A program made the translations under genes and the position numbers. Of a DNA stretch of 64,000 nt, positions 848-54,741 are shown in pieces (the first letter of the stretch is position 1; each line of letters begins with the position of its first letter). The notes under the pieces are model-generated. The model had not been told where the DNA came from and searched no databases. It saw nothing but the letters and a program-made list of their open reading frames with translations. This DNA is from Asterias amurensis (taxonomy: Eukaryota; Echinodermata; Asteroidea; Forcipulatida; Asteriidae). Location of the stretch: NCBI RefSeq assembly GCF_032118995.1, contig NC_092657.1:16288181-16352180 (forward strand), in the 5' to 3' direction.

Positions 848-3800
848 GTGAGTTTATTGCGTAGTTTTTATTGTATTTCGTGTTCACATTACAGTTAATT
901 GGTGATGGTTTTAAGAAATAGAGCAACACGTTGTTCGAATGGGCTTGAATTTAGTGTCAGGCCAGCGGTTTATCTCCCTTAATTTAGGTCAAATTATATT
1001 CGTAAAGTTGCAATTGTTGGACCATGTAGTACATGACTAGCCCCTTTTATACAGGTTTAGTTAGGGTGCGTTCGTTTAGCTTCACTGGGTCAACCCCGGT
1101 GTGAGGCGGTTTTTTTTTCCAGGACAAACGTGGGTATTTATCTTCACACGTTTGTCCTGGAAAAAAAAAAAACACGCCACACACGGGGGTCGACCCAGGG
1201 GAGCTAAACGAACGCACCCACAATAAATCGGTCGAATCCACTCTCTCTGGGATCCTTGGCCCCAGCACGTCTGATAATGATATCAAAATCTTTCGCTTCC
1301 TTGAAAAAGTATCTGCAACGATCTGCAACATAACAGGCAACTTACTGATCTAATGCTTCAGAAGTTGCAGATACGTAGCCCCACACTTGGAATTGTTCAA
1401 ATTTTTGAAATTGGTATCACAGGTTTTGAGTAAAAATCAAATAAATTAATTGGGTCGCACTAAATACCGACAACTCACGACAACTCACGACAACAATTTT
1501 TAAATGCACTTTAACACTTTATTTTTTTTCTGAACCGAAAAGGTCCAATGGCTTTAAAGCCATTGGACCCTCTCGGTACAGAAAAAACAAAAAAAGTTCA
1601 CAGATTTACAAATCATTTACAGGGCCTACAGAAGGTAATGGTGAAAGACTCCTCTTGAAATATTAGTTCATGAAATGCTTTACTTTTTGAGAAAACAATA
1701 AAACAATATAAATTCTCGTTAGCGAGAATTACGGATTTATTTTAAACACATGTCATGACACGGCGAAACGCGCGGAAACAAGAGTGGGTTTTCCCGTTAT
1801 TTTCTCCCGACTCCGATGACCGATTGAGCCTAAATTTTCACAGGTTTGTTGTTTTAAATATAAGTTGTGATACACGAAGTGTGGGACTTTGACAATACTG
1901 TTTACCGAAAGTGTATAATGGCTTTAAAACAATATTATATTTAAGTTTCCCCTTTTAACTTTGAATTCCAGAGTAGCGGCTTAGTTACTAACAAGAAAGA
2001 AAAAAATCAGCAGCTAAAACCAAAACGAACAAAATAAAACTCAGCCCTCAGAAATTACTTCGCCCCCTGTGGTGTAATAGAATCGTCCAAGTACGTTGAA
2101 AGACAACATGGTAGATACAGTATTACCGTTCGTTACTAAATTCGGGGTAAAAAACACCTTTTTTACAGTTAAAAATACAATTTTTTTCATCAGTTTGAAA
2201 GTGATTTGGGTGCATATAGACTATTGTGCATATATTTAACGGTTGACTTAAATGTTTACATGTTCTGTTAAAGTGCATTTAAAAATTGTTGTCGTGAGGG
2301 GTCGTGAGTTGTCGGTATTTAGTGCGACCGAATTAATTAGATTCTAATACTAAATTTATTTCTTATTAAAAAGGAATGATGATGGCCTGCAGGACTTTAA
2401 TTTTTTTCCCTATCTAATTCTAAAGTTCTCTAAAGTCAATTTAATATCATCACTGATCGCTCATTGTTCAAATGTTGTTGCACGTAATTTTATGTATTTA
2501 TTAAATTATTATAATTTAAGATTATATTTAAATAATAAGTTTTTGTTTTTTTAATTCAGACAGAAAGAGAATTGTTTGTTTTCGTGATATATTATTGACA
2601 TAATTTTGTTTGCTCATTTATTAAATTTAGGCTACAATCCAACTGGAGCCACTTGTACTCAATACACAAATAATAATATTACATGTCCATATTTAAAACA
2701 CTCGAAAACCTGGCTTGGATTTCTAGTAAAAACTGCAAGGGGTGATAAATACGTCTCAACTTGGGCTACTCTACTCTTGAGGCATTATACATTGTGGTCT
2801 CTCTTAATACATGTATTTTATGCATGACGTCATAGTTCTCACCCAAAATGAGGCTATGGCGTATGGGCGCAAGTCTTCCATCACTTGCAGTGGCTGCGCC
2901 CATTTCCTCGTTTTGGGTAAGCATTGTGACGTACATGTACCTCAATGTATAACATTAAGAGAGGCGTATGCTTCACAACGAACATGGTATGAAGCCCATT
3001 TAGGTGCTCTAATGGTTGGGTTCCTCCAAGGTGAAAGGGGGTATGTTCATCACCCTCGCCCTACCCCATCCACCCTTTCCTCACCCACAATTGTCAATCC
3101 TAACCCCTGACACTACCCATACCCTAACACTCACCCCCTCCCCCCACCCCCCCCCTCCCCCCAAATCCAGTCACCCTCATCGTCTCGTGGTTGTGGCTTC
3201 ATGAAGCCTTATTTAATTTATATTCATTATAACATTTTATATAATTTCATTACAGCTTGCTGGCAGAAGAGTTGGTCAGCAACAATTCCTTTGAGATTTT
3301 AGCAACCAACTTCCACCATGCGTTCAAGACACAGGATCATTACAAAGTTGGATCAGCTCTTGTAAGTTCTCATACTTAGTCATATAGGCTAACGTTTAAA
3401 AGGAACACGTTGCCTTGGATCAGTCAAGTTGGTCTTTGAAAAGCGTTTGTTATAAAATGCATATGGGTAGAAAGATGTTGTAAAAGTAGAATACAATGAT
3501 CCACACAAACATGCCTCGAAATTGCGAGGTGACCTTTTACCTCGTCGACTAACACGGTCAGCCATTTATGGGAGTCAACTTTTTGACTCCCATAAATGGC
3601 CGACCAAGTTAGTTCGCAAAGGAAAACCAAAACCACGCAATTTCGGGGCAAATTTGTGTGGATCATTGTATTCTACTTTTAAAACATCTTTCCAACCATC
3701 TGACCATACTGATTTTATAACAAACGGTTACAAACGCTTTTTATAGACCAACTCGACCGATCCAAGGCAACATGTTCCTTTAAATGCTACATGAAGGCCT

Positions 3801-6800
3801 ATATTGAGTTATACCTCTTTCTCGAAAACTACATTTTTTTCAGAGGGAGCCGTTTCTCACAATGTTTTATACTATCACCAGCTCCCCATCACTGGTTACC
3901 CAGTAAGTTTGTATGCTAACAACTATTTTGAGTAAAATTACCCATAGTGTCCAGTGCCTTAAAAGACACTGGACACCTTTGGTACATTGCAATGGGAGAC
4001 TTTTTGAAAGCTCTGCCACTAGAGGGCAGCAGACCTACCAGGTAAGGGTGCACAACTCCTATAGCAAACAATGGTACATGCTAAAAATTCAAAAATACTC
4101 AAAAAATATTTAGAAGTCTCTCAGCCTCTTGAAACTTAAATCAGATACATTGTCATACAACTAAACTTCAGATTTCTTCTCAAGTTTTGGTAGGTCAGCA
4201 TTTTGGAGTTTTTGCTATACCCTAGAAGAAACACTCCCAAAAACTCATGCACACCGCTTGTTATTCTTGGGGAACTCGTGTCCAGTACGTCCTGTTCCAG
4301 AACAGTTTGGTTTATGCTGGCAATGCGTTATGAACAACAAAATACAGTTTGGCTAAATCTAAAATACAAAATCAAAAACACGCCAAACACAAGGTATTTG
4401 CTGTCAGTGACCGTCACTCATGCTTTTCCTATTCCTAAGTTGTTGACAATACCTGGTGAAGAGCGCCCTCTCTAGGTGATTGGCAGATAGTCTAAAGTTT
4501 CCCATTGAGTCACATTATTCTCACTTGTCGGTGTATCCCTAACAGCAAAATCTGTGAAAATTTTTATTAAATTATTGGTCACCAACAAAGCGTTTACAAA
4601 TGTGTGTGTGCTTTCACATGCCGAAAAAAGGCTTCAGACCTTGAAGTCTTTTAGGCTAATATTTCAGTGAGGGTTTACCTCTTTTTCAAATACTTTACTT
4701 CAGACAAGTCCGTTTCTCACAAAGTTGTATGTTTTTAACAGCTCTCTGTTGCTCATTTCCAAGTACACTTTTATGGTTACAATTTCCTGATAATTACCAA
4801 TAGTGTCCACTGCCTTAAAGGGAAGGTACACGTTTGGTAATTACTTAAAACAAATATTAACTTAAAAACTGACTTTGTAACTAGCATTGGAGAGCTGTTA
4901 GTAGTATAAAACATTGTGGGAAACGACTCCCTCTGAAGTAACGTAGTTTTTGAGAAAGAGGTAATTTCTCACTAAAATAATAAAAGACTTCTAGCCAGAA
5001 GTCTTTTATTCCTGTCTGAAAGCACACAGATTCGTCCAACAAGGTTGACTTTTCTTTCATCATTTTCTCTCAACTCCGATGACCAATTGAGCTCAAATTT
5101 TCACAGGTTTGTCATTTTATGCATATGTTGAGATACACCAAGTGAGAACACTGGTCTTTGACAATTACCAATAGTGTACTTCCCTTTAAAGAAATAATGC
5201 CGGGCCTCAACGCTATTCATATGTGTACATTATTCAACTAGTCGCAAAACAGGTAATTCAACCTGTTTGTTGAACCGTTTGTATGGCTCATGACTGTTCA
5301 CAACAACATTTTACAAGCATGAAAATCCTTCAGCATGAATTTTACTATTAACATTATGCAGCAATGCATTCAATTAAATTCAACTCAATTCAAATTTTAT
5401 TGGTCCTACCATAGGAGAAAATTCATTTTGAATACATGCAATAAAAACAAAATTGATAAAGCACAATCATATCATGTTGGGAATTAGAACTTGGTTTTGC
5501 GACTATTTGAGGCGCGACTAGTCGACTAGTCGAGTAGTAAATATCATGATTCACCCAGCCTAGGCCTACTGCTCAAGGCTAGTCCTACATTTAAATTCAA
5601 CTATTTTTGATGAGTAACTGATTTTCTCCCATTCTTTTTTGCTCAGGTTCTCTTGTTACAGAATCCAGACTTGTTACCGTCTCCAGCCCAGCGCTTAGTA
5701 GCTTTGTTCTATCTGTGGGAGATGCATCGCAGTGACCCCATAGGAAACAATCCTTTTGCACCTGTATTCTCCCATCTGCTGGTAAGAGAGTTACTCTTTT
5801 GCGTTAATTTTCATTAACCGTCAAAGGGTCTGTGCACTTTTTGTAGGACAAAAAAACACAATGTCCACAGATTTACACTAAACTTACACAGTTTGAAGAT
5901 AATGATTGTAGAAAGCTTCCTTGAAAATACTACGTGCTGAGGTGCTGTAGTTTTTTGAAAATGAGTGAAACAATGTCATGAAAATAATTTTGGTCTCACG
6001 AGACCAAAATTATTTTAAACATTTACAAACGTATTTTCATGACACTGTTATACTCATTCTCAAAAACTACAGCACCTCAGTAAGTAATATTTGAAGGGAA
6101 GCTTTCCACTATCATTGTCTTCAAACCATGTAAATTTAAAGTGGAAGTGTCGTGGCCGAGCGGTTAAGAGCACCGAATTCAAACTCTGGTGTTTCTGATC
6201 AGCAGAGTGTGGGCTCGAATCCCCAGCCGTGACACTTGTGTCCTTAAGCAAGACACTTTACCATTGCTTCGTCCTTCGGATGGGACGTAAAGCCGTTGGT
6301 CCCATGTGTTGTGTAACGCATGTAAAAGAACCCAGTGCACTTATCGAAAAGAGAAGGGGTTCCCCCCGGTGTTCCTGGTTGTGGCTGCTTAATGCGCCGT
6401 AGCACCTTGTAAACCCTTACAAGGTGCTAAATAATTGGGTCTCAGATTCCATCACTACAATAACCTATCTTTCTGAAAAGTTTGTATATACTCAGCGCCT
6501 TGAGTACCTTGTTTGGTAGATACGTGCGCTATATAAGACTTTGATATTATTAAATCTATGGACATTTTGAAAAAGTACCCAAATCCTTAAAAGGCAAAGT
6601 GTACATCTGCTTTTTGGAACCGCTTGTTTGTTACAACCTACTATGCTATAAGTTTAGAAATATGTATTTGATTTTGGGGACTAAATCACACAGATATTGA
6701 CAAAATAAGGAGACTAAATAGGGCTAAATAGCTCAGTTGGTAGAGCGCCGGCACTTTAATCCGGAGGTTGTTGGTTCAAGTCCCAACTCTTGTCAATTGT

Positions 6801-12800: not shown

Positions 12801-15800
12801 TTCTTCCTTGGCACCAGTAACTACTCCAGATTGTTGCAAAAAAATAGTTAATGGCCTGACGTTTCGACCCTAGCTGTAGCTGAGTCGAGTTCTCGAAGAC
12901 TAAATGACAACACAACTAAACAGGTAACTAAGTGAAACATAAGCAGTGAAGTGGAAAAAAAAGCAGGGGGTAAAGAGTGAATAGGAGGACAAACAGGGGG
13001 GGGGGTTGAAGGTGAAGGGAAGGGACTATTCTTCCTGTGCCGAAGCAACTACTCCAATATCACAAAATATCACAAAATGCTACAACCTTTATGTACATGC
13101 TCCGCGCCTTTGGAACACGTTGCCTTGAAATGGATAGGTCGAGTTGGTCTATAAAAAGTGTTTGTAACCATTTGTTATAAAGATGTTTTGAAAGTACAAT
13201 GATCCACACACATTTGCCTCGAAATTGCGTGGTTTTCCTTTTACTTTGCGAACTAACATGATCGACCATTTATGGGAGTCAAAAATTTGACTCCCATAAA
13301 CGGCCGACCGTGTTTGTCAACGGGGTAAAAGGAAAACCACGCAATTTCGAGTGATGCTTGTGTGGATCATTATATTCTACTTTTAAAACATCTTTCTAAT
13401 CATATGCATTTTATAACAAATGTTTAAAAACGCTTTTCAAAGACCAACTTGACCAATCCAAGGCAACTATTCCTTTAAAATCATGTCATGAAACGGCGAA
13501 ACGTGTGGAAACAAGGGTGGGTTTTCTTGTTATTTTTTCCCGACTCGGATGACCGATTGAGTCTAAATTTTCACAGGTTTGTTATTTTGTATATTATAAG
13601 TTGTGATACAAGAAGTTTTTGCCTTTGGACAATACTGTTTACAGATGTTGTGCGATTGCTTTAAAGGCAGTTGACACTATTGGTAATTACTCGGTTTTCT
13701 TGGTTTTATTACCATAAAACCTTACTTGCTAACGAGTAATGGGGAGAGGTTGATAGTATAAAACATTGTGAGAAACGGCTCCCTCTGAAGAAAGGTAATA
13801 TTCGAGAAAGAAGTTATTTTCCACAAATTTGATTTCGAGACCTCAGAATTAGAATTTGAGGTCTCCAAATCGAGCATCTGATAGCACACCATTTTGTGTG
13901 CAAAGGGTGTTTTTTTCTTTCATAGGTGTCTCCCAACTTCGACGACCAATCAGGTCAAATTTTCACAGTTTTTGTTTATTATGCATAATGTTGAGATACA
14001 CCAAGTGAGAAGACTGGTCTTTGGCAATTACCAATAGTGTCCAGTGCCTTTAAAGGGGTTGATACCTTTTGATTTTGGCCATGACATGAATCCCTACTCA
14101 CTGTGAATGAAAATGTACGTGTATGTAAATAATTTACCTATAGAAGATTTAGCTTCATCAGTCTTCAAGTTCAAAAGTTCTAAGTGTAAATGCTAGAATA
14201 ATGTTCGTCTCCTGAGATGAACATTATTTTTGTGACATTGTTAACTCATTTCTCATAAACTACAGCACCTCAGCTACATGTAGTAACATTTTAAGGGAAG
14301 CTTTCTACAACAACTATCTTCAAACTGTGAAGGTTTAATGTAAATCTGTGGACATTGTGTTTTGTGTCCAACCCAAAGCCTTTAATAAGGAAAACCATTT
14401 TGGTATTTTGCAACAGTTATTTATCTTTAACGTTTCCAGCTCCCAGGCCTCGTTGAGCATAACCCGATCGTCGCAATTGAAGTCCTCCTGCGTCTGATCC
14501 AATCCAACCAGATCACTGAGTACTTCTCGGTCCTAGTCAACATGGAAATGTCTCTCCATTCAATGGAAGTCGTCAACAGACTCACAACGGTAAGTTGCTT
14601 TGTCATGGCCGAGCGGCTAAGAGCGCTGGACTCAAGCTGTGATGTTTCTGATCAGCAGAGTCGCATATACAAAGTCACTAGAACAAAGATTCTAGGCCTC
14701 TTACTTTCTGAGTTTTATAGTTTTATATCAGAATTTTGACAAAAATTGTCGTCATTTTGAAAAATGGCGGACCCAATAGTCTGACACACTCAAAACATTT
14801 TTTTTTTGAACTGTTGGACTTGGCAAACATATACAAAGTCACTGGATTGAAGATTCTAGGCCTCTTACTTTCCGAGTTATGTAGTGTTAATCAGAATGGA
14901 CAAAGCAGAGTGTGGGTTCGAGTCCCGGTCATGATAACTGTGCCTTGAAGCAGAAACCTAGCCATTATTGCTGGGGCTTTCGGATGGGACATAAAGCTTT
15001 AGGCTCTGTGAGTTGTGTATCACACAAAAAAGAACCCAGCGCACTTATCGTGAAGAGAAAGGGTTTGCCCCAGTGTGTCTGGGGTCGATTTCACAAAGAG
15101 TTAGGACGAGTTACTTAGGATACGTCCTAGGTACGATTTCACAAAAGGGTTTAACGCTTCTTAACTTCAACGGCAAAGGTGACGTACCCGTCCCAAATTA
15201 GGAGCGGTATAAGGGTCGTACACTGTATGTTAAGGCACTGCTACTGTTGGATGGCTGCGCTGAGAGTGGGCACTACAAAGAAAACAACTAGTCTGTCACA
15301 CTGGCATATAATTTCGGGCTTAACATGATTTATATTGAAAAAAAAGATGCGTCCTGAGTGACAGACTAATCGTTATAAACTTCACTACCACGGAGTAAGT
15401 TCTTAATATGGTCTAAACATTACGACTAGCTTAGTCTAGTCATCGTCGGTAGCAGAAAGTTTTGTGGCCCAGCAGCCGATTTCATGAAACTTTCACGCAA
15501 CGTCCTATGTCCACTTATGCTACGTTTATAGCTCCATAAGCGTTGAGCAAGTGGACTTTCGCAGTTGCTTATGGCCACTTGCGCCAAAAAAATGTTGCGG
15601 AAGTGGACTTACATAGTTGCGTGAAGTTTTGTGAAATCTTCTGCTAGGCAACAGTTGACATGGCCTCTGTGTAATTCCCATAGATATAGAATTAAAATAA
15701 GGAGATCAGCCGCGAATACATACGCGCCGTTGCCTGTGTAGAACAAGTTTTTGTGTTCGCCATGGACATGGTAAGAATTTCACTTTCGGAAGGCGACGCG

Positions 15801-18800
15801 CCGAAAATTAACATGGGAGATAGGCCTTTGACGCGCTAAATGTCAAGTGCTGACGGCAACAAGTCACGTGCTGACGGCAACGCACAGAAAATGTACACGG
15901 GAGATAGGCCATGGCGGCCCCTTTGCCACAACCCGCGTATGTTGCGCGGCCGATCTGTTTATTTTAATTCTATACCTGTGGTAATTTCAAGCTTATCTTC
16001 TTTTATTTCAGGCTGTTGAGTTACCCCAGGAGTTTGTGCATCTCTACATCTCAAATTGCATCACGACTTGTGAAACCATCAAGGATAAATACATGCAGAA
16101 TAGACTCGTTCGATTGGTAAGTGAAGAAGGAAGATGTAATAATAATAACAATAAATGGAAGTGTCGTTGCCGAGTGGTTAAGACCACCCAATTCAAACTC
16201 TGATGTTTCTGACCAGTAGAGTGTGGGTTCGAATCCCCAGCCGTGACACTTGTGTCCTTGAGCAAGACACTTTGCCATTGCTTCGTCCTTCGGATGGGAC
16301 CTAAAGCCGTTGGTCCCATGTGTTGTGTAACGCTTGTAAAAGAACCCAGTACACTTATCGAAAAGAGAAGGGGTTCGCCCCGCTGTTCCCGGTTGTGGCT
16401 GCTTATTGCGCTATAGCACCGTGTAAACCCTTATACGGTGCTAAACAATTGGGTCTCAGAATCCATCACTTCAATCACATTTCTAGTGCCTTGAGTGTCT
16501 TGTTTGGTAGATACGTGTGCGTGTTTTGCAGTAACTGTTTCCAGAGCGAGCACTAGTCTTTAAAAATAGTGCCCGGCTACACCACCCTCTCATGACTTGA
16601 ACCGTAAACAGCAACTACAAAGGGAAGGGGCTGGTTTGACCACAAGAGGATGGAAACACAAAGGACAATATCAAACCTTCCAGAAAGACTCTGCTATGGG
16701 TGAAACGCCAGGGGCCAATTTCATAAGCACGAAAATTTGCTTAGCATGAATATTCTTCCTTGGTAAAAACAGGATTACCAACCAAATTTAATGTGATTTT
16801 CAGGATAAGGAAACAACAGCTAAATACCAGCAAGCAATATGCAAGACTTTTTAACTTGGTTGGTCATCCTGTTTTTATCAAGGAAGTAGTTTCATGCTAA
16901 GCAAATTTTTGTGCTTAGCAGCTCCATGAAGTTGGGCCCAGGCCTATCTTTGCATTGATACATACATGTAGGTCTTTGTTAGTAAGCAGTTTGCAACAGC
17001 TAATTCAATTAAATTCAAATCAATTCAAAAAAACTTTAATCATCCTTTGCAGGCAATTACAACAGTAGACTCGGCTCCATGTAAAATTATTAAGAGAAAT
17101 ATATAACATACAATAATTTATAAGTATATAGATTACCTGACAAAATGACAAATCAGATGTACAAATGGTTTAAACCACATCAATTATATACAAGTGAATA
17201 CATTTATAAAAAATATTATGAATTGAACGTACAATATTAAGAACCACAAAACAAATAAAACTTAAACAGCTAAACAGTGGTCAACCAGACCTCCAAATAG
17301 TTGACATCCCGCACACGGAAACAGTTGAAAACAAGTGCAAAACGTCAACCATTCAGAAGTCTGGTTGCCACTGAAACGAAAGAGAACTTCCTTCTGAAGT
17401 TAGAAGTTTAACATCACCTGTCTTTTGCTTTTTCTTTCCCATAGGTGTGTGTCTTTTTACAGTCACTCATCAGAAATAAGATCATAAATGTAAAGGTAGG
17501 TAAAAGTTGTAGTAATAACGTGTTACTTGAAAAGTTGTTTTATATTCTAACTGGTGCTGTGAGATACGAGGGTTAAGGCCCGGTCCCACTGCAGCGATAG
17601 TTAGAACGATAACGATGCAAAGAAAACGCATTACATTGGTTGAATGAGCGCGGGCGTATTCTGCGTGGAGCAATTCGACCAATAGAATGCGTATTCTTTG
17701 CGTCATGGTTGTTATTATTTGTTATCGCTACAGTGGGACCAAGCCTTTACACCTGTTGGTGCTTTCGATTAGCCTCGACGGGTCGACCCGGTCTGCCCCC
17801 AGTTCGTTGGAATAGGTTTGATGTCATTCCAGGGGCTCACCCGTGTCAGCCCCCAGATTCCCGCTTGTTGAGTGGGTCACTTAGGGGTGCACGACAACAG
17901 AGGATTTGTGATCGTTTAATTAGCTCTTGTCAGTGGCTCACCTGAATGAGCACCGCGGGGTCGACCCAGGGAAACTTATTGAACGCACCCTGTAGGTATC
18001 TTCCCTTACTCTGTACAGAGAAACAAAGTCCTGTTTAGGCCACATAAAAAGTGACTGTTTTATAGTGATTGTGATGATTTCATTATTTTTGATTTCATAT
18101 TTGGCATGTCAGCAAAACTTAAAAAAGAAAAAAAAAAAACTCCCTCCCCAATCCGCAAAAACTAAAAGGACGATCAACAATTTTTATTTTTTATGTGGCC
18201 TTATACAGGCCTGTAAAATCTCTGCTTTTGAGAGCTCTAGAGACTATTACTGTTTTGTTGCTGAGCTCTTCAAGCGAGAATATGCTTCTGGCCTGGTCTA
18301 AAACTCCCTAAGCTCAAACGTATTCAAAATTCTGCTGCTAGACTGGTAACCTGCTTGTCACCTCGACAACATACATGTATCACCCCAGTACTTCGCCCAC
18401 TTCATTGATTACCCGTCTCTTAAATATAACGCATAGAATTCAAACTTCTCCTGCTGACGCACAAATCTCTTCATCAATCCGCACCTCATTATCTTCAAGA
18501 ACTCCTTCATCCCTGTACCTCATCGTACTCTCCGCTTCAGCTCTACTCTCCACTAGTCCCATAAATCACTCTCACAAAGTCATATTGTTGCAGTACCCGC
18601 TGTCAAAACATAGGATTAGAACTGCCTCTAGCTACCAGGCAGTCTCGGTAGTCTAGTTGGTTAGACCCTGCTCTAGAATTGCAAAGGTCGTGGGTTTGAA
18701 TCCCACGCGAGTTGCCTTTGTTTTTTTTCTTACATGATTTGGGAAAGTACTTAGTATACAGTGCTATTACGTAACACATATCGGTGTACGGGTAAAAACC

Positions 18801-20894: not shown

Positions 20895-21025
20895 CGAACA
20901 AAGATATTGACAAAATAGGGACACCGCCAATACAGGGCTAGATAGCTCAGTTGGTAGAGCGCCGGCACGTTTTCGGAGGTCGTTGGTTCGAATCCCACTC
21001 TAGTCAATTCTTTGTTTAACCCCAA
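20895..21025 (+). repeat. tRNA-like repeat, second copy
   Basis: TAGCTCAGTTGGTAGAGCG with GGTTCGAATCCC; the anticodon arm is short. Shares flanks with 6690-6830. Confidence 0.65.
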
Positions 21026-21035
21026 AAATCAATAT

Positions 21036-21329
21036 AACACATTGTGAGAAACGGCTCCCTCTATAGTAACGAAGTTTTCGAGATATATGTTAAATAAGTT
21101 TCCACAAATTTGATTTTGAGACCCAAGATTTTGAATTTGAGGTTTCGAAATCAAGCATCTGAAAACACACAACTTCATGTAACAAGGGTGTTTTCCTGTC
21201 ATTATTATCTCGCAACCTCGACGACCGATTTTGCTAATTTTCACAGGTTTGTTTTATGCATTTATGTTGAGAGACACCAAGTGAGAAGACTGGTCTTTGA
21301 CAATTACCACGAGTGTCCAGTGTCTTTAA
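21036..21329. mobile_element. P1 MITE lacking its left end
   Basis: Starts inside the family at CACATTGTGAGAAACGG and ends GTGTCCAGTGTCT-TTAA, shared with the P4 copy that follows. Confidence 0.8.
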
Positions 21330-21684
21330 AGGGTCTATGTAACTTTTGTAGGACAAAAAACACAATGTCCACAGATTTACACAAAACTTACACAGTTTGA
21401 AGATAATGAAAGTAGAAAGCTTCCCTGAAAATATTACGTGCTGAGGTGATGTAGTTTTTGGGAAATGAGTAAAACAATGTCATGAAAATAATTGTCTCAT
21501 GAGACGAAAATTATTTTAATCATTTAAAAACATATTTTCATGACATTGTTTTACTCATTTCTCAAAAACTACAGCACCTCAATAAGTGATATTTGAAGGG
21601 AATCTTTCCACTATCATTATCTTTAAACACTGTAAGTTTAATGTAAATCTATGGACATTATTAAAAGGTACCCAAATCCTTTAA
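21329..21684. mobile_element. Complete P4 palindromic MITE
   Basis: TTAA-AGGGTCTATGTAAC to ACCCAAATCCT-TTAA, centre TGTCTCATGAGACGAAA. Best reference copy of P4 in the window. Confidence 0.85.
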
Positions 21685-25139: not shown

Positions 25140-25320
25140 AGATGTTAAATTTTCATCGGGGATAAAGAGTGTCAATTTTGGTTCTTACCCATACAACGAT
25201 GTGTGTTAGCACTGTATACTCGGTACGTACTTTCCCGAGTCCTGTGACGTACTTTCCCGAGTCCTGTGAAAAAATATCACAGGCATGTTACTCGGTGGGA
25301 TTCGAACCCACGACCCTTAT
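25140..25320 (-). mobile_element. tRNA-derived SINE S2, reverse orientation
   Basis: GTATACTCGGTACGTAC, ACTTTCCCGAGTCCTGTGA (present twice in tandem) and the reversed B box GGTGGGATTCGAACCCACG. Confidence 0.75.
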
Positions 25321-26530
25321 TGTTTATTGTTACATGTAGGTTGCATGTTAATATCCCGCTCTAGTCAATAATTTTCTTCTTCAAATTATGAAATAATCGA
25401 TAACACAAACTGTGATCTTTCAGTGCATCCATGAAGTTGGTTTCATAGTGTGTGCACAGATAGTTCGGCATATCATGAAGTAAAAATACAACACCGCATT
25501 TTGTATAAATCAATTCCATTACTATGGCAACGGCCATCTGTTGTACAAGTCCTCAAATTTTGTGTAATATTCTTGTTAATAGACGTGGCTCCGCTATCTG
25601 AATTTATAAATAATTCAAAAACAAATTCAGCATCCGGGTGGGGTTAAATCAAAACAAACAAAATCGAGACAACAGGTGTTCAAATTCAGGGGTTTGACCG
25701 AAAACATTTATTTTGATTTTTGTTGTTTAACCTAAAGCAATTTACAGATCATACTTCAGTGGATGTGATCTTAGTATCCCGCTCATTTCTGCTAAGCAGA
25801 ATTATGTTTGCCCTATTAGTAGCTGTGTGAAATTGGGTTTTGCCCTCATAATGCGTAAGGGGGTACGTACAAGCGCAGTTGTTGTGCCCTAAAATTACTT
25901 GATTAACATGCTTCCTGGACCCTTACCCTGCCCCCCCCCCCCCCCCAATTTGAAAACTTGACAGTCGAGAGTAAAGGTTATACCGTAGTCAATTGTTACA
26001 TTTTCTCGCTTTTGCCCTTTTTAGTACAGGCTCGTTCCTTCATCCCATCAAATGGAACGGGGGTGTCAGTTCAAAACACAAAACAATGTCAAAACCATCA
26101 TAAAACAACAACAACAACAACAACAACAACACAAATCTCTATACTTCACTGACTTTTTGATTGCGTCCCTTGCGGCCTGCTGTTCATTCCAAGTACAAGC
26201 GCCTCTCGCTACGCCACGCAAGCCCCGGCCTTTTCGGTGTGGACACGTCAGCATAAACACACAACAAAACCATAGTCACTATATCACAGTTACTCAACTA
26301 CCACAGCTTCGACGAGCACCTAACCCTTCAATACCCGACCTCAGAACGGTGCAGTCATCTACGAGTCGAAAGGGTCTGTATACATTTTCTTATTTTGGAA
26401 CCCTTTGAATATTATTCCAATCTGATACGAATCTGAGAAGCGTTACTGTCAGTAATGCTTCCCAGATTGTGTATTTTACATTATATTTTTATCATTGGCA
26501 GGGGTTTGGTTTTGCACATCTCAAGATGAC

Positions 26531-28585: not shown

Positions 28586-31500
28586 GTAAGACTCCATTTT
28601 TATTTTCACAATTACAAATAGTGTCCACTGCCTTTAAGCAGAGTGTGGGTTCGAATCCCGGTCGTGACACTTGTGTCAAGTGCTTTTCTCCACCCAAGGG
28701 TAAATGGGTACCTGTGAGGACAGAGATGGTTCTTGTGATTAATTTGGCTGTAGTGCGCTACATTATTTGGCAGCCCAGGCTGTATAACAAGGGAGCTGAG
28801 ATGGCCAGTAGGAATAAAATGGCCCAGTGAGCAGGGTACGATGTTGGAAGCGCTTTGGAACATGGTGTGTAAAGCGCTATATAAAAACATAATATAGGTT
28901 TTCTCGGTCAAAGTCGGCAAATGAGCAGCCACTTTCAATTTAATGCGTTCGAATTAAAGCTGTTTTGCCTCTCCAACTGTTACTGCGTTTCAAATTCAGA
29001 ATTCGGCCATTCAAGTCCGTTTTGAGTCAAATCAAATTCATTATAGCTCTCTGTTCAATTTAGCGTATCGCCATTCTTTTTCGTGACAAACACGCCTCAA
29101 GAAGCATCTGCGAATTTGAGTGCTGCTTTGATGAATTGCTAAATTGAATTATTATTTTGTTTAAATCGAATGACGCAACATTACATTTGACTAACCATAA
29201 AGCGAATTCGAATGACCCTTTCAGTAGCATTCGATTTCGACGGAAATAGAATAGGCTGGTGGTTAAATTGGCTGGTTATTTGCCGGAATTGACAGAGAAA
29301 ACCCATATTAGTAATAATTATTAATAGTGATTTTAATCACAGCGGCTACAGGATAATCTCAGTGTTTTAACTATTACTCTTTTGTGGCCAAACATACATC
29401 GTAGAAACTGATTTATAACCATTTTACACTTAAAATTTGCATTTGATACTCAATATTTCAAGGGAAAAAAATGCACCTCTCCGCGCGGCTTTTTCAGCCG
29501 AGAGACAAAAACGGCTTATCTATTATATGACCCATTGACGTCAGTGGCGATTTTTCCCTAATTGAGTTTGAACACAGTTCTCCAGCTTTGGCAAACTGAG
29601 GACGCTATTTTCCTGCACCAAATAGCCGCCAATGACATCACGATTCCTTTGTCGCGCGGGTTTGTTTGACCTCACGTTTTTTTCAGAATTTTATCTTGGA
29701 GTGTTTCGGGGGGAATTTGTATTTTTTTTTACCATGTTTTAAATCGAGGTACGATACTCGTGCGTGGACTGCGTTTATTACAAAAATGTAACAACTATAT
29801 ATTTGTGAGGATTTCGAGCTGCTGTTTAATCAAGCAACATCCTCCATTTAAACAGCAAGAGTTGTGTGAATGCAACCCGCCAAGGGACGTCACCGCGGAA
29901 AACCTCAAGTTCAATGCCGAGAGAGAGTGTTTCTGCGCATGCGGTGGTGAGGTTGATGGAGAATGCCTGGTAGACCAGGATTGTATACACGGCCTCCATT
30001 GCGCAGCCGGAGATAGCTTGACCGGCAAGGGAAAATGTAAAGGTACGAGGTTGAAGTGTTGCTACCTACATCCCTTTCTGACATCCCTTTCCTTAATAAG
30101 GAATATTCGATAGTTTCCAACGTAGGTCTTTGGACCAATCAAAGTTTGTAAGCTGTCCATGGTATTAAGATGTGTTAAATACACAAAACACTACAGGTAA
30201 TTGTCAAAGACCAGTATTCTCACTTATTTCAACATACTTTATGCATAAAATAACAAACCTGTGAAAATTTGAGCTCGATTGGTCGTCGGAGTTGCGAGAT
30301 AACTAGGAAAGGAAAAACACCCTCGTCACACGTAGTTGTGTGCTTTCAGATGCTTGGTTTCGAGACCTCAATATTCTAAATCTAAAGTATCGAAATCAAA
30401 TTCGTGGTAAATTAACTCTGTCTCGAAATAAACCTACGTCACCTCAGAGAGAGCCGTGGTTCTCACAAGGTTTTATACTATCAACCTCTCCCCATTACTC
30501 GTTACCAAGTGAGGTTTTATACTGATAATTATTTTGAGTAATTACCAATAGTGTCCGCTGCCTTAAAGGAAAGATACACGTTTGGTAATTACTCAAAACA
30601 AATATAAACTTAAAATAACTTACTTGGTAACGAGCATTGGAGAGCTGTTGATAATATAAAACATTGGGGGAAATGACTCCCTCTGAAGTAACGTAGTTTT
30701 TGAGAAAGAGGTAATTTCCCACTAAAATAATAAAAGACTTCTAGCTAGAAGTATTTTTATTAAGCACACAAATTCGTCCAACAAGGGTGTTATTCCTTTA
30801 ATAATTTTCTTGCAACTGTGCATGACCAAATGAGCCCAAATTTTCACAGGCTTGTTATTTTATGGTTATGATGGGATACACCAAGTGAGAAGACTGGTCT
30901 TTGACAATTATTACCAAACGTGTACCCTCCCTTTAAAGCCATTATACACTTTCGGTAAACAGTATTGTCCAAGTCCCACACTTCGTGTATCACAACTTAT
31001 ATATAAAATAACAAACCTGTGAAAATTTAGGCTCAATCGGTCATCGGAATCGGGAGAAAATAACGGGAAAACCCACTCCTGTTTTCGCGCGTTTCGCCGT
31101 GTCATGATATGTGTTTATTAGATCCGTAATTCTCGCTATCGAGAATTTATATTGATTAATTGTTTTCTCAAAAAGTAAAGCATTTCATGGAACAATATTT
31201 CAAGATAAGTCTTTCACCATTACCTTCTGTAAACCCTGTAAATTATTTGTAAATCTGTGAACTTTTTTTTTTCCTGTACCGAAAGTGTATAATGGTTTTA
31301 AAGGCAGTGGACACTATTTGTTATTACTCAAAATAATTATTCGCATAAAACCTTTCTTGGTGACAAGTAATGGCGAGAGGTTGGTGGCATAAAACATTGT
31401 GAGAAACCACTCCTCTGAAGTGCCATAGTTTTGGAGAAAGAAGTAATTATCCACGAATTTGATTTCGAGACCTCAAGTTTGGAACTTGAGGTCTCGAAAT

Positions 31501-33555
31501 CAACCTCTCGAAATCTAAACGCACACAACTTCGTGTGACAAGGGTGTTTTCTTCTTTCATTACTATCTCGCAACTTTGATGACCGATGGAGCTCAAATTT
31601 TCACAGGTTTGTTATTTTATGCATATGTTGAGATACACCAACTGTGAAGGCTAGTCTTTGACAATTACTAATAGTGTCCACTGCCTTTAAATACATTATT
31701 TAACCTCATTATGTTGACCACAGATGCATGCAAGAAGCCGGGGCTTGGTTGTGATATCTTCGACTACTGCCAAGTCAAAAGTGATGGTGAGCCGGAATGC
31801 AAATGTAACATCCGGGCATGCAGTGACATACTGATCGGCTCTGGGGTGTGCACCATCGACCCGCAGGAGAATAATGCCAAACAAACCTTCAACAACGAGT
31901 GAGTAGGTTTTTGTTATGAGTAGAAGTCTTGGTGCGAGACGTTATTACAAATGTCACTAACTTAAATCACGCACAAACAGAAGTAGCCTGGTGCCAAATT
32001 TGTATCCGTGAATAAAGGCAGGTATTGGGTTTACAGACACAGCGATTTCATTGGATACAAGTGATTTTATTTGGGATAAACAATCATCAACAACGAGTGA
32101 GTCAGGTTACTTTTCTCAGTAGTAATCTTGGTACGAGACGTAATTACAAATGCAAGTAATTTAAATCATGCACAAACAGAAGTAGTCTGGTCCACAGTTT
32201 TTATTCGTGTATAAAAAGTTATTGTGTTCAGCCGTGTCATTGGATACAATTATTTCATTGGATAAACGCTGGTCGACCATTGGTTGACTACTGTGGTCGA
32301 CCAGTACACCAGGACTATGAGTGCGTTTTGGCGACCCCAACCAAAAACTGTTTCTGACGTCATAACCAAAACGGTAACCGAGCTCACAACTCGGTTATCG
32401 TTCAGTCTGAACAGCAGAACCAACGACCAACAACCGAAACAGTTTTTGGTTGGGGTCGCCAAAACGCACTCAAGGTTTCTTTCTGTTTAATGCTCCCAAA
32501 AGCATTTGCCCTCTTTATAACTTTGTTCATTTACGGCTCTTGGGTTGTGCTCAATGAGCATGGCCCAAGTTCATGGCTCTGCTTACACCGAATTCTGCGC
32601 TTACGCTCACGATTCCCCGCCTACGTGCAAGCGCCAATTTTCTGCGCTATCCTTGTAAGCATTATAATGCCTAGTAACGTGGAGTACGCACGCGCAGAAG
32701 CCAAAATGTGCCGCCAACCCGTGAAATACGCTTACCGTATAATTACCTGCTTCCGTATAAGCACCGATTATGTGCTTACGGTAGCAGAGCCATGAAGTTT
32801 GACCGGGTTTTGTTTGGTCGCGCGGTTGCTGGACGTCATTATCGGAAATATGTAGTACACCATCTAACTTCTATTTTTTGTTTTTCTTCAGCTGTCTGTT
32901 TGTGAATGAGCAGTGCAAGCGTCGACAAGAAGGAAAGAACAAACTTGAGAGACGTCCAATTCTGACATGCGCAGGTAAAGTTGGCATGACGTAATCACAG
33001 ATCTGGGCCCAATTTCATAAAGCCTGTTAGCACACGAATTTGCTTAGTTCGACAATTCTTCCTTGGTAAAAACTTAATTACAAAGCAAATTTCCGTTTGT
33101 TGCATATTGCTTGAACTGGTATTCAGCTGTTGTTTGCTAAATCTTGAATATCACTTGGAAATTTGGTCGGTAATCCTGTTTTTACCAAGGAAGAATTTCA
33201 TGCTGAGCAAATTTTGTGTGCTTACAGGCTTTATGAAATTGGACCAAGAATTCAGTGTAAACATTTATTTTGCAACGTCACAAACTATGGAAAGCAATGA
33301 AAAAAAAATAATAATAATGAAAATCGCTACTGTTGGTAACAACGTTACAATTATTCCAAAATTGTGTTGGTTTCTGAAAGTTTGTATATACTCAGTACAT
33401 TGTTTGGTAGATACGTGCTCCATATAAGACTTCGATATTATTAACGCAACAATTTTGTTTAATATAATGCAATTTTCACAAATTATTTTACAGTTGAGAT
33501 TGAGCCGAATCTGGGCGGTGGTGGGCTCCATGGATGGAGGATGTCTGGGATCTAA
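28496..33555 (+). CDS. Secreted IGFBP-N-like plus Kazal-like protein (5 exons)
   Basis: Exons 28496-28585, 29856-30042, 31724-31898, 32892-32974 and 33494-33555 join in frame (phases 0, 1, 2, 1) to 198 residues, with GT-AG borders. Residues 1-19 are a signal peptide (MKVFFALTIWLLVGSVNA, cleavage before SHS). The mature protein has 20 cysteines. Residues 29-108 have the CxCxC, GGExxGEC and CxxGLxC pattern of an IGFBP N-terminal domain. Residues 118-177 read CKC, VC, TFNNDC, QC and a last C, the Kazal order, with an insert of about six residues before TFNN. Domain order matches IGFBP7/HTRA1-type proteins. Such proteins act outside the cell, binding growth factors or proteases; the real partner here is unknown. 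The short tail (EIEPNLGGGG) has no domain. Poly(A) signals AATAAA lie at 33884 and 34129. Confidence 0.75.
28630..28891 (+). mobile_element. S1-like SINE, body and tail
   Basis: GCAGAGTGTGGGTTCGAATC (B box), CTCCACCCAAGGGTAAATGG and GCGCTATATAAAAACATAA tail. The head is missing; it joins a P1 end at 28637. Confidence 0.7.
28892..29855. other. Intron 1 of the IGFBP/Kazal-like gene, unclear content
   Basis: 28940-29240 is rich in AATTCGAATT-like text with weak inverted matches (TTCAATTTAGC and GCTAAATTGAA), perhaps an old foldback. The rest has nothing recognised. Confidence 0.35.
29856..30042 (+). CDS. IGFBP/Kazal-like gene exon 2
   Basis: Residues 31-92 plus one base: QELCECNPPR through ECFCACGGEVDGECLVD and CIHGLHCAAG. 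Acceptor aaacag, donor gtacga. Confidence 0.8.
30193..30565 (-). mobile_element. P1 MITE, first of four joined end to end
   Basis: Left end worn (GGTAATTGTCAAAGACC); ends GTGTCCGCTGCC-TTAA at 30565. Confidence 0.8.
30565..30936. mobile_element. P1b MITE, second of four joined
   Basis: TTAA-AGGAAAGATACACG to GTACCCTCCCT-TTAA. Shares both TTAA borders with its neighbours. Confidence 0.85.
30936..31297 (-). mobile_element. P2 MITE, third of four joined; best P2 copy
   Basis: TTAA-AGCCATTATACACTTTCGG to GTGTATAATGGTT-TTAA; centre ATTCTCGCTATCGAGAAT. Confidence 0.87.
31297..31690. mobile_element. P1 MITE, fourth of four joined
   Basis: TTAA-AGGCAGTGGACAC to GTCCACTGCCT-TTAA. Ends about 35 bp before the exon 3 acceptor. 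Confidence 0.87.
31724..31898 (+). CDS. IGFBP/Kazal-like gene exon 3
   Basis: Residues 93-150 and part of 151: end of the IGFBP-like domain (CKKPGLGCDIFDYC) and the first half of the Kazal-like domain. Acceptor ccacag, donor gtgagt. Confidence 0.8.
31888..32275 (+). repeat. Tandem duplication of exon 3 end, donor and intron
   Basis: Text around CAACAACGAGTGAGT, GAGACGT-ATTACAAATG, GCACAAACAGAAGTAG and CATTGGATACAA occurs at 31888-32083 and again at 32084-32275, about 85% alike by eye. The second copy keeps the donor sequence. Confidence 0.75.
32318..32473. mobile_element. MITE with near-perfect 36-bp inverted ends
   Basis: TGAGTGCGTTTTGGCGACCC at the left and its complement at the right, continuing through CCAACCAAAAACTGTTT. 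The centre has GGTAACCGAGC and CTCGGTTATC. About 155 bp, no coding capacity. Confidence 0.85.
32892..32974 (+). CDS. IGFBP/Kazal-like gene exon 4
   Basis: Residues 151-178: DCLFVNEQCKRRQEGKN through PILTCA, closing the Kazal-like domain. Acceptor cttcag, donor gtaaag. Confidence 0.75.
33004..33246. mobile_element. Foldback MITE (GGGCCCAATTTCAT family), copy 2
   Basis: TGGGCCCAATTTCATAAAGC to CTTTATGAAATTGGACC with TTCCTTGGTAAAAAC arms. Confidence 0.8.
33365..33443 (+). mobile_element. S1 SINE tail only
   Basis: GAAAGTTTGTATATACTCAG and TTTGGTAGATACGTGC...ATATAAGACTTCGATATT, as in the end of 6138-6548. Confidence 0.65.
33494..33555 (+). CDS. IGFBP/Kazal-like gene exon 5
   Basis: Residues 179-198 and the TAA stop; a Gly-rich short tail with no conserved motif, so this exon is the least certain. 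Confidence 0.6.
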
Positions 33556-38540: not shown

Positions 38541-39009
38541 TTGTATGGAGAGCTGAATCTTATCTTATATCGTGTAAACTGCCGTTGGATGTTCATCTTC
38601 GCTGAATTGTTCATATATTCACATACATTTGTCAGTAACAACCAGTAGTTATACAACTACTGATCCCAGTTGGGTATTCTCCTTCGTCAACTCTTAGACA
38701 GAGAATAGATAGGCACAAGGCACCAGTAGGAATACACAGCCTGCCTAAATACAACTCAATAGGACATCTTTCTCAATTTCTAGACTTCCACGAGTTTTCA
38801 AGAAGTCAAAACTGCAACCAAACGAACAACAATGAAAAATATGTAGCTATCGGAAACATTAACCTGGGAAAACTTATCGTGTGTCAACCTCAAATACTCA
38901 AATTCGTACCAACTGGCATGGAAAGAGAAAGACGAATCATAGTTTTGTAGGTACACTCGTATAATGTGAGCTACTGTTATTCGCCAGCTTGCCCATTTAT
39001 AACGTCGAT

Positions 39010-39519
39010 ATGTATGTTGTGCTCTTCGTATTGTTTGCTGCCTTTCTAGAAAGCTGCTATTTTGGACTGATCACATCTGGAGACCCGCAATGCTTTACAT
39101 GTATTTATGATAACTCATCATGCCCGGAGTCTTGGCATTACTGGGGAAACTCATGCTACAAGATCACTGAGCCGAGATTTACCTGGTCAGATGCTAAAGA
39201 CGAGTGTAGAAACCTGGGTCGTGTTCTGGGTGTACCAAGCTCCAATCCAGAAAACGAGTTTACAGCACAATTATCTGAGGGGGTAGTATGGATCGACTGT
39301 AATGATCGAGAGGTGGAGGGGAGATGGAAGTGCAAAGAGGGTAACGTGGAGGTCGCTTACAGAAACTGGAACTATAACGAACCGAATAACCAGGGAGATG
39401 AAGATTGTGCTGCCTTCTATACTACGTGGTGGGGAAGCCGGAAATGGAATGATTTGGAATGCAGCAGACTAGAGAGAGCGCTTTGCAAAATGGCTGGCAG
39501 ACCAGTCCTTCAAGTGTGA
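39010..39519 (+). CDS. C-type lectin 1, secreted, EPN/WND type
   Basis: One exon, 169 residues. The ATG at 39010 starts a hydrophobic signal peptide (MYVVLFVLFAAFLES); no ATG lies further upstream in frame. The C-type lectin domain spans about residues 38-160: CPESWHYWGNSCYKI opening, WIDC at 94-97, EPN at 124-126, WND at 146-148. Cysteine pairs expected are 38/49, 66/159 and 133/151, with a family-specific extra pair 97/108. EPN with WND is the calcium-site 2 pattern of mannose-type lectins, so mannose/GlcNAc-type sugar binding is predicted. It is the only intact copy here with a perfect WND. Probable role: secreted recognition of microbes or glycans, inferred from the family. A DNA transposon lies 130 bp after its stop. 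Confidence 0.9.
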   Translation: MYVVLFVLFAAFLESCYFGLITSGDPQCFTCIYDNSSCPESWHYWGNSCYKITEPRFTWSDAKDECRNLGRVLGVPSSNPENEFTAQLSEGVVWIDCNDREVEGRWKCKEGNVEVAYRNWNYNEPNNQGDEDCAAFYTTWWGSRKWNDLECSRLERALCKMAGRPVLQV

Positions 39520-40723: not shown

Positions 40724-41900
40724 TATAGTCATGGCGAAATGTTCCTTTCCCCATTACATTTTGATGATGTAATAGCAGCTGTTCATCAAACTGATTGATC
40801 TTGTAAATTTAACAGAAGTTGTTCGTTTATCTGATGTGTACTCTGTCTACGTACGCTGAGTCAACCTTTTCGTACCGACCAGGGCCCAATTTCATAGAGC
40901 TGCTAAGCACCAGAATTTGCTTAGCGTGAAATTTCTTCTTTGATAAAAACAGGTTTACAAACCAAATTTCCATATGATTTTCAGGATCTAGCAAATAAAA
41001 GCTGAATACCATTAACAAGCACTATGCAACAAATTAAAATTTTGCTGGTAATCCTGTTTTTATCGGGGAAGAAATGTCACGCTTAGCAAGTTGTTGTACT
41101 AAGCAGGTCTATGAAATTGAGCCCTGATTCTTAGTGAGAAATACGTTTTCCGCGAAAGTTAATTTCACTAAATACTTTGTTCTGTTTTCAGTAACAACAG
41201 CTGCGTCTGAAAGCAGTCTCTGTGCTCAAGATTTATTTTATTTTTCCTGAAATTGTCTGAGTCGGTTTCGTATTCAAATAAATCATTGAGTTTCATTTTG
41301 TGAAGCCCGTTAACACACTGCGCAGTGACGCATTTATTGATTAACCACATAGTACAGTAGACACCAGGTGCAGCAGTTGTTGCTTTCATTACATTTCTTT
41401 GTGTCAATTTAGAAACAATTTATTGCAACTTGTGGATTTAGTGTTGGTGATGTTAGTATTAAAGACATTTTAGAAAAAAAAACAATAATTTTTCATTGAA
41501 ACTTCTGTTGTTACGGTATGTACTATACAGTACTCAGAAACTTTATGACGTATTAATTCAGAGCAAAATTAGTTGTCTGAAATTCGAGAACGGTGGGACT
41601 TTGCTAAGATTATCCCATAACAACAATTACTTTTGTTCAATAGACACTAGTGGTTGATTTTATCACACCTCTTGTGTTAAATCAGTGAATGATATTTTGT
41701 GATCTATAGTCGTACAACTTGTAGTGTTGGTGACGTCAGTCTTACAGATAATTAGGAAACAAAATGATCATGTTTATCAGAATTGATGTTTTTGTATCAG
41801 ACAGTACTTAAAGTCACCTGGAAGTGGTATTTTTTCAAAATAAAGCTTTTGTCACTAATGTATGTGTTTTGATGAAGGGAATGTGAATAAACAGTTAACT
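40724..41900 (+). repeat. Lectin 3'-flank duplication, copy A
   Basis: Matches the flank of the lectin pseudogene (55848-56900) and, in part, 45290-45610: TGGCGAAATGTTCCTTTCC, GCGTCTGAAAGCAGTCTCTG, CACTGCGCAGTGACGC and ACAGTACTCAGAAACTT. Interrupted by a foldback at 40885. Confidence 0.8.
40885..41124. mobile_element. Foldback MITE (GGGCCCAATTTCAT family), copy 4
   Basis: GGGCCCAATTTCATAGAGC to GTCTATGAAATTGAGCCC. Absent from the matching place in the paralogous flank near 56007, so it came in after the duplication. Confidence 0.85.
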
Positions 41901-41973
41901 AAGGTTTTAAAAAATCAGTTCTTATGTTATTTACAAATATAAGAGTAGACCCCGACCCGAGAGGGCGCTGTTC

Positions 41974-42212
41974 GTGACGTCAATCGAGGCAGACTTTGCC
42001 TGTAATGTGTAGAGTAAACACAATTGCAAAGTACATGTAGTGACCAAGTCGTGAGTTGGTACGTTTCAAAAAAAATGCCGACCAGGTGTATTGCTGCTGA
42101 ATGCAGAAAAACACTTTTTGAAATGTACCAACTCACGACTTGGACGTACATGTACTTTGCACGTGTGTTTACTATATGCATTGCAGGCAAAGTCTGCCTC
42201 GACTGACGTCAC
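41974..42212. mobile_element. Foldback MITE (GTGACGTCAATCGAGGC ends)
   Basis: GTGACGTCAATCGAGGCAG at 41974 and the inverse CTGCCTCGACTGACGTCAC at 42212; arms AAGTACATGTAG...CCAAGTCGTGAGTTGGTAC also pair. Confidence 0.8.
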
Positions 42213-42489
42213 AAAAGGGGTAGGTAACAAAAAATTACTAAAAAAATTGTTTTATTGTTCGTAAGCATTTACTCTTATGTTTGAAAGGAAAACAAATATA
42301 TTTTCAGGTGACTTTAAATTTTGCAAAAAACGTAATATTTAAAATGTTTAAAACAATCGCTATGACGGTCATAATGGCTTTATTTATTAGTTAGTATAAA
42401 ATCAAAGGTTTCATTGTTCTCAAAAGGGTTGCGTTTGTGTTAAACACATTCATGTTTAAGTTGCTGCAATCATTTGCTGATTAGGTTTT

Positions 42490-44335: not shown

Positions 44336-44422
44336 AAAAAAAAATAATAATAATAATTCGTAAGCTAAGTAATTTGTATCGAGAATGGACACAAAAGTAA
44401 CAGTGTGAACATCGGTGTCATT

Positions 44423-44938
44423 ATGTTGTATTTAGTAGTGTTCATAATATATGCATTGCTATATAGCTGTTGTTTTGGATTTGCATCTCAAGACCAGCAA
44501 TGCTATACATTTAGGTATGAAAAATCATCCTGTCCGGAGTCTTGGCATTACTGGGGAAACTCATGCTACAAGATCACTGAGACGGCATTTACCTGGTCAG
44601 ATGCTAAATACGAGTGTAGAAACCTGGGTGGTGTTCTGGCGGTACCAAGCTCTGATCAAGAAAGCGATTTCATCGTAAACTTGATGCCAGAGGATAGCAT
44701 TGTATGGATCGACTGTAACCATCAAGAGGAGGAGGGGAGATGGAAGTGTAGAGAGGGCAACGTAGAGGTCGCTTACAGAAACTGGCGCTCCGGAGAACCG
44801 AATAACGCAGGCGAAGGTGAAGATTGTGCAACCATGTATACATGGTTCGGACTTAGGGGTCAATGGACTGATGTGAGTTGTAGTAAATTATACACAGCTA
44901 TTTGCAAAATGGCTGGCAAACCAGTCATTCACATGTAA
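44423..44938 (+). CDS. C-type lectin 2, secreted, EPN/WTD type
   Basis: One exon, 171 residues. The ATG at 44423 gives a hydrophobic leader (MLYLVVFIIYALLYS). Lectin domain about residues 37-161: CPESWHYWGNSC, WIDC at 95-98, EPN at 125-127, WTD at 148-150. The asparagine of WND is a threonine, which removes one of the usual calcium and sugar ligands, so calcium-dependent binding may be weaker or altered. Compared with lectin 1 it has the longer NLMPEDSIVWIDC loop, shared with lectin 4. Secreted recognition lectin by family; ligand unknown. Confidence 0.9.
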   Translation: MLYLVVFIIYALLYSCCFGFASQDQQCYTFRYEKSSCPESWHYWGNSCYKITETAFTWSDAKYECRNLGGVLAVPSSDQESDFIVNLMPEDSIVWIDCNHQEEEGRWKCREGNVEVAYRNWRSGEPNNAGEGEDCATMYTWFGLRGQWTDVSCSKLYTAICKMAGKPVIHM

Positions 44939-50716: not shown

Positions 50717-51000
50717 CTATGCGTGAGATTTTTCAAAGCTCAACCACCCACCCCCCCCCCCCCCCCCGAAAAAAATTGCAAGTTTTAGAAGGCCTTTCGA
50801 AATCGCCGCCCAACTTTTTTTTTATTTTATTTTATTTTTTTATAAAAAAAAATTAGAAATTTAATTGTGGACAAAAAAGTGTTCCAAAATGCATCAAAAA
50901 GCTCTTCATAATAATTAACACTAACATGAGGTACACAGAATATGTTGATGGTTAATGTGGAGGTACGATTGTGACAGATTATTTCCTTCCAAACTAAAAA
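50717..51000. repeat. Spacer 1 of the higher-order minisatellite
   Basis: Begins TATGCGTGAGATTTTTC, contains CTTTCGAAATCGCCGCCC, GACAAAAAAGTGTTCCAAAA and AATATGTTGATGGTTAATG, and ends TTCCAAACTAAAAAAGTC. Repeated at 51726, 52911 and 53935. Confidence 0.9.
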
Positions 51001-54608: not shown

Positions 54609-54741
54609 TATGCATAAGGTACGTCGTCTAACCCAAAACGAGGTGGGCGCAGCCACTGCAAGTAGTGGCGGACGTGCGAAGAAGCTTCATTTTGGGTTAG
54701 AATTATGACGCCATGCATAAATATTGAGAGAGGCGTATAAC
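54609..54741. mobile_element. Foldback MITE (CACCCAAAATGAGG family), copy 2
   Basis: CTAACCCAAAACGAGGTGGG to TTCATTTTGGGTTAGAA, then CATGCATAAATATTGAGAGAG. Related to 2791-2976. Confidence 0.65.

Follow-up and report, generated by a model that had tools for sequence, protein, structure and literature searches.

The window analysed here, a 64-kb stretch of DNA from the sea star Asterias amurensis, contains a predicted intron, called by eye at 30043-31723, whose flanking exons are cysteine-rich and whose phases fit across it (AAA G/AT GCA TGC, with the slash at the splice). About 90% of this intron is occupied by a chain of MITEs placed end to end (Table 1). As the first-pass annotation of this DNA had proposed, four elements, P1, P1b, P2 and P1, follow one another and share single TTAAs, the joins lying at 30563, 30933 and 31298.

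Table 1. Elements and single-TTAA joins in the 64-kb window, by position in the window.
Feature	Position	Strand	Remarks
P2-P2 join	1554..1557		left partner is a 31-bp end only; missed by the first-pass annotation
P1-P1b join	4815..4818		left P1 truncated; missed by the first-pass annotation
P3 copy	13112..13474		right TTAA adjoins the interior of the half P2
Half P2 (positions 16-179 of 363)	13474..13645	-	decayed end at P1 (13661)
P1 copy	13665..14049	+	TTAA at 14050 joins P1 to P4
P4 copy	14054..14386	+	
P1 copy lacking ~86 left bases	21033..21325	+	TTAA at 21326 joins P1 to P4
P4 copy	21330..21680	+	127-bp arms, 87% complementary
Whole chain in the intron, outer TTAA to outer TTAA	30175..31690		order P1(-), P1b(+), P2(+), P1(+)
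P1 copy	30179..30562	-	outer (left) 17-bp terminus decayed; TTAA still precedes, at 30175
P1-P1b join, one TTAA	30563..30566		gctgcc-TTAA-aggaaa
P1b copy	30567..30932	+	
P1b-P2 join, one TTAA	30933..30936		ccct-TTAA-agccat
P2 copy	30937..31297	+	left arm P1-like, right arm P4-like
P2-P1 join, one TTAA	31298..31301		ggtt-TTAA-aggcag
P1 copy, ends recognisable	31302..31686	+	
Outer right TTAA	31687..31690		~32 bp upstream of the predicted splice acceptor
K copy, short and rearranged (THAP-bearing Kolobok-type element)	41812..42313	-	TTAA at both sides

Two other groups of joined elements had been reported from the window. In the chain placed at 13110-14395 (P3, P2, P1, P4), the P1-P4 join at 14050 is clean on both sides, but only half of P2 is present, and P3 does not meet it terminus to terminus; in the pair at 21036-21684 (P1, P4), the join at 21326 is clean, but P1 is incomplete on its left. 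Altogether, 39 of the 470 TTAA sites in the window bear a recognisable border of P1, P1b, P2, P3, P4 or K, with 46 borders in total; borders were recognised with a single reference copy for each family except P4, which had two, and those of other families would escape. Seven of the TTAA sites are joins (1554, 4815, 14050, 21326, 30563, 30933 and 31298), compared with about 1.1 expected at random insertion (Poisson P 0.0002) and with up to 2.9 after weighting for flank preference (P 0.007-0.03), all these P values being post hoc for a window that was picked for its joins.

The TTAA-AG left and CT-TTAA right borders that had been attributed to every family are indeed general: P1, P1b, P2, P3, P4 and K all start with AG and end with CT, and P1, P1b, P2, P3 and P4 are flanked by TTAAs wherever their ends are preserved. 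The description of the elements as palindromic is apt for P3 and P4, which have long arms, but not for P1 and P2, whose terminal inverted repeats extend over only about 50 and 21 bp, respectively. The families had also been taken to be otherwise unrelated, which is true of P3 but not of P1, P1b, P2 and P4, which have arms in common. In local alignments compared with 100 shuffles, the left arm of P2 resembles the right arm of P1 (identity at 107 of 137 aligned positions, z 30), and an arm of P4 resembles the right arm of P2 (97 of 124, z 20), while the left end of P1b and that of P1 reach z 7-8 and 4.5, respectively, against P4. No match of P3 to the other MITEs was found by the same alignments (z at most 2.1; 3.9 with K).

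Kolobok transposons are described as having TTAA duplications and RR...YY ends, unlike piggyBac (PMC9587614, in its account of the superfamily), and in Xenopus, AG ends next to TTAA are found in T2-MITEs as well as in full Kolobok elements, with THAP-bearing transposases (PMC6004289, in its sections on these elements). The TTAA target duplication and 5'-RR...YY-3' termini that define Kolobok occur together in P1, P1b, P2, P3, P4 and K. Flanking TTAAs were found on both sides of 40 of 63 P1 copies and on one side of the other 23, most of these copies having been fetched by a pattern with TTAA at one end; both sides carry TTAA in 18 of 20 P2 copies and in 4 of 4 near-complete K copies. The first-pass annotation had left the choice between a piggyBac and a Kolobok type of transposase. 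The target duplication is shared with piggyBac, but the AG...CT ends differ from it and are of the RR...YY form by the distinction drawn in that part of PMC9587614, so that, of the two types proposed, Kolobok fits and piggyBac does not; a transposase of Kolobok type is thus what we infer. The resemblance to the Xenopus T2-MITEs described in PMC6004289 extends to the TTAA target and the AG ends, to the presence of several MITE subfamilies in a genome and to THAP-bearing transposases. The T2-MITE motif AGGRR is present in P3 (AGGAA), P1b (AGGAA/AGGGA) and one P4 variant (AGGGG), but not in P1 (AGGCA), P2 (AGCCA) or K (AGGCA/AGTCA), and therefore, the families are not filed as T2-MITE proper, a separation made by motif. 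P1, P1b, P2 and P4 have related ends, so that it is plausible that one enzyme would serve these four families; the ends of P3 are unrelated to theirs.

A search of the genome for THAP domains gave 150 matches (150 scored of 417 candidates). Among them is K, an 810-bp element with TTAA-AGGCACCTGG ends, copies that are 96-98% identical (four multi-copy loci among many that scored similarly) and a reading frame of 174 aa with a THAP domain, identified by Pfam on one copy. Two loci (L095 and L096) contain a THAP exon followed by exons with GDGR, DRH and DVWH motifs, and a few other places have related exons; DVWH fits the C/DxxH signature named in the consulted part of PMC9587614. The catalytic exons of these Kolobok-like genes gave no Pfam match above the cut-off, and their name rests on the motifs; the model PF20700, tried as a Kolobok model, matched neither here nor in any control genome and is uninformative. 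No P1 to P4 ends or other recognisable termini were found in the 7 kb of sequence covering each of L095 and L096, and a limited search of the genome found no autonomous element with P1 to P4 ends, whereas the T2-MITEs in the cited sections of PMC6004289 are accompanied by full elements that lie between TTAAs and have AG ends. Two further candidates were set aside: a 696-aa frame at L089 combines THAP, HTH_Tnp_4 and DDE_Tnp_4 and is another kind of THAP-bearing transposase, and in a 757-aa frame at L090 no transposase was seen by eye.

The joins were counted across the 491-Mb genome with exact ends, which represent the best-preserved ends only (27,532 for P1, 11,971 for P2 and 15,481 for P3, of which the window holds 4, 5 and 2, respectively). 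The genome total of TTAAs, about 3.99 million, was extrapolated from 2,509 in 309,268 bases of the window and loci, some of which overlap; other samples give 3.6-3.7 million (3.61 million from the window alone), which would lift the expectations by about 10%. For sequential insertion at random TTAAs, with E ends and T TTAAs, the expected number of joins is E squared/4T within a family and EaEb/2T between families. Against these expectations, P1-P1 joins are too few (30 vs 47.5; 0.63x, 95% 0.43-0.90), while P1-P3 joins (92 vs 53.4; 1.72x, 95% 1.39-2.11) and P1-P2 joins (145 vs 41.3; 3.51x, 95% 2.96-4.13) exceed them. The P1-P2 pattern is looser than the P2-end pattern, its prefix being absent in 3 of the 20 joins read, and a fairer count would be about 123. 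For P2-P2, three pairs were present among the first 100 of 2,177 places with AG behind a P2 border, which scales roughly to about 65 vs 9 expected. The shortage of P1-P1 joins may reflect the loss or mis-assembly of abutting copies, which would make up long repeats in inverted or direct order. At one place (G000:C19:11279248-11279625), two P1-P1 joins lie 342 bp apart in what looks like three P1 in a row.

The sequence next to the border TTAAs of the elements is not a random sample of TTAA flanks. AG follows the TTAA at 3,983 of 27,532 P1 ends (14.5%) and at 2,177 of 11,971 P2 ends (18.2%), compared with 246 of 4,364 background flanks after masking of the elements (5.6%). Among P1-copy flanks from which AG-selected ends were left out, AG stands at 8 of 74 (10.8%), and AA falls to 6.8% from a background of 17.6%. 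Since the elements begin with AG and end with CT, a border TTAA is always preceded by CT or followed by AG, which, by the AG-flank weights, inherently makes it a 1.9-2.6 times better target for P1. With these weights, the expectations become 92-122 for P1-P1, 103-137 for P1-P3 and 80-106 for P1-P2, giving ratios of about 0.7-0.9x for P1-P3 and 1.4-1.8x for P1-P2; for the latter, a modest excess is left even after weighting, and P1-P1 falls clearly short.

Single loci were also read for joins. The unbiased set consisted of the first 30 exact P1 ends with 1.5 kb on each side and is thus centred on a P1 end; its 58 borders include 1 join vs 1.23 expected. The 30 P1 loci selected for AG contain 67 borders and 1 join vs 1.65 expected, and in two more of them the flank starts with AGGGAAGGTA, which resembles an element end; the majority of the P1-AG flanks read are thus not joins. 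The first 100 P2-AG places include at least 6 P2-P2 ends and 5 places that coincide with P1-P2 joins. In eight THAP/Kolobok loci, 26 borders were counted, with 2 joins vs 0.25 expected; one of the two joins (L092, 4188) links K to a P2-type end through one TTAA. The window is a local outlier for joins: 14 of its 46 borders take part in joins, compared with 2 of 58 for the unbiased loci (Fisher P 0.0002, post hoc). It was, however, selected on account of its joins, and the density of borders in it (8.3% of TTAAs) equals that of the P1-centred unbiased loci. Over the whole genome, the frequency of joins is roughly what copy number together with local target preference would predict, and only about 1% of exact P1 ends sit in exact joins with P1, P2 or P3 (60 + 145 + 92 of 27,532).

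The orientation, ancestry and age of the joined copies were followed in the P1-P2 joins, 100 of the 145 counted being listed and the first 20 read for orientation. All four relative orientations are present: P2-right with P1-left in 9, P2-left with P1-left in 7, P2-right with P1-right in 3 and P2-left with P1-right in 1. P1 thus takes part with its left end in 16 joins vs 4 with its right, near the share of left ends among unbiased exact ends (22 of 30). In a tree of 66 P1 copies, from which the window, L001-L008, L071 and the loci from L089 onward were left out and in which 39 of 63 inner branches are weakly supported, the 17 joined P1 copies require 14 state changes (mean 15.2 with shuffled labels, of which 25% are as low); being scattered in this way, they do not form one lineage. 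L070 and L071 represent a single segment that was duplicated, with 97% identity outside the elements. Divergence at L005-L008 amounts to 1-3% between the P2 halves and to 7-14% between the P1 halves joined to them, a pattern that insertion of young P2s next to older P1s would give. The simplest account is that joins result mainly from repeated insertion at later times, in many cases of P2 next to an older P1.

We consider it probable that the chain in the intron was formed by four successive insertions of Kolobok-type non-autonomous elements, whose order we infer, with a preference for CT-TTAA/TTAA-AG flanks and without recognition of the earlier copy. Each element would have inserted at a TTAA and duplicated it, and the insertion would turn its own flanking TTAAs into CT-TTAA or TTAA-AG sites. 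Such contexts are chosen about 2-3 times as often as the average TTAA, and with border TTAAs making up about 8% of the TTAAs in the window, end-to-end joins would follow unaided. The chain would then be, for the most part, an ordinary outcome of a TTAA that is both the target and the edge of earlier copies. Several observations count against this explanation, namely the P1-P2 excess that persists after weighting, the apparently high number of P2-P2 pairs, the excess of joins in the window and at the THAP/Kolobok loci, the correlation between P2 and P1 divergences (see below), the duplicated segment of L070 and L071 and the failure to find an autonomous element with P1 to P4 ends.

The first-pass annotation had suggested a preference for the border of an earlier copy, for which adjacency should exceed chance; this expectation mostly fails. 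Homing of this kind, by which a transposase or a partner of it would recognise the ends of earlier copies, could account for P1-P2 at 3.5x and P1-P3 at 1.7x over random TTAAs, for the apparently high P2-P2 and for a window rich in joins. Yet P1-P1 lies below even the random expectation, although the loss of repeats could deplete it; AG-flank weighting explains most of the other two excesses and brings P1-P3 below 1x; the 30 unbiased loci have no more joins than expected; and the exact joins take in so few of the exact P1 ends. Strong homing to borders is rejected on the genome counts, and we regard homing in general as improbable. The opposite reading dispenses with flank preference altogether, so that chance crowding alone, in an element-rich stretch picked as striking, would have produced the chain. 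The single join in the unbiased loci, where 1.2 were expected, and a border density of the window equal to that of these P1-centred loci agree with it, but the concentration of joins in the window (post hoc as it is), the genome-wide excess of P1-P2 and P1-P3 and the 14-18% of AG flanks vs 5.6% do not. This reading, which is possible but on the unlikely side, overlaps the preferred explanation, and the probabilities of the two do not sum to one.

It has also to be asked whether P2 and P1, once joined, moved and multiplied as a unit, a composite transposon with one end from each partner. The P2+P1 pair was matched over its whole length at 27 places besides the window (among 40 scored of 19,501 candidates), and eight pairs that were aligned have outer flanks that are all different, with TTAA at both outer ends in five and at one end in three. 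The divergences of the P2 and P1 halves are correlated over 14 same-orientation pairs (Mantel r 0.43, P 0.02), 8 of which had been preselected by similarity to the window pair; the remaining six alone give r 0.35 and P 0.19. Independent joins in the same orientation, however, would also yield whole-length matches, and the mixture of orientations, the joined P1 copies that are no more clustered than under shuffled labels in a weakly supported tree, and the P2 halves far younger than the P1 halves attached to them at L005-L008 led us to reject a composite P2-P1 as the main source of joins. We therefore hold this origin to be quite improbable for the joined pairs, while a minority of P2/P1 pairs were perhaps moved or copied together.

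MITE multimers are already published, and TTAA/AG MITEs are known from Xenopus; no report of the P1 to P4 families, or of such families in sea stars, was found in the titles and abstract openings of the papers that the literature searches listed. In rice, 11% of MITEs are in multimers (Jiang and Wessler 2001, as stated in PMC10664404), and in the pithovirus M1/M2 elements, adjacent copies share one target dinucleotide TSD (PMC10664404). The multimers of both systems, as presented in the relevant passages of that paper, are likewise made of adjacent short elements, but these are of other kinds and have shorter targets, whereas the joins reported here are rare and near the chance level. KolobokP, a Kolobok lineage with echinoderms among its hosts, also forms multimers (PMC9587614, in the part devoted to it), but what is shared in these is a set of long terminal direct repeats that enclose an internal region with genes, whereas here independent MITEs share just a TTAA. 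The present case is a worked count of a common trap: where elements present in tens of thousands of copies have a target that is short and fixed, chains form by themselves, and do so more strongly where the ends of the elements improve the flank of the target.

The make-up of P2 offers one less ordinary hint. Its P1-type and P4-type arms are what a chain of a reversed P1 and a P4 would leave after an internal deletion, and P2 may thus be a hybrid that was moved by the outer ends of such a chain, joined MITEs acting as a workshop for families; judged from the arms, we think this origin unlikely, if worth considering. If it were true, one transposase would recombine arms into hybrid families by way of end-to-end insertion, and chains would explain the origin of MITE families with exchanged arms.

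Apart from the elements, the window contains three tRNA-like genes at 18642-18716, 20936-21006 and 25287-25371 (Ser, Thr and Gly), the one at 20936 directly preceding the P1-P4 pair. Five similar reading frames (38965-39519, 44369-44938, 54721-55176, 60499-61089 and 63266-63802) resemble, by eye, a tandem array of secreted C-type-lectin-like genes, and the region 50800-54100 consists of tandem repeats with several frames open and units of the HNHTQVNGKL type.
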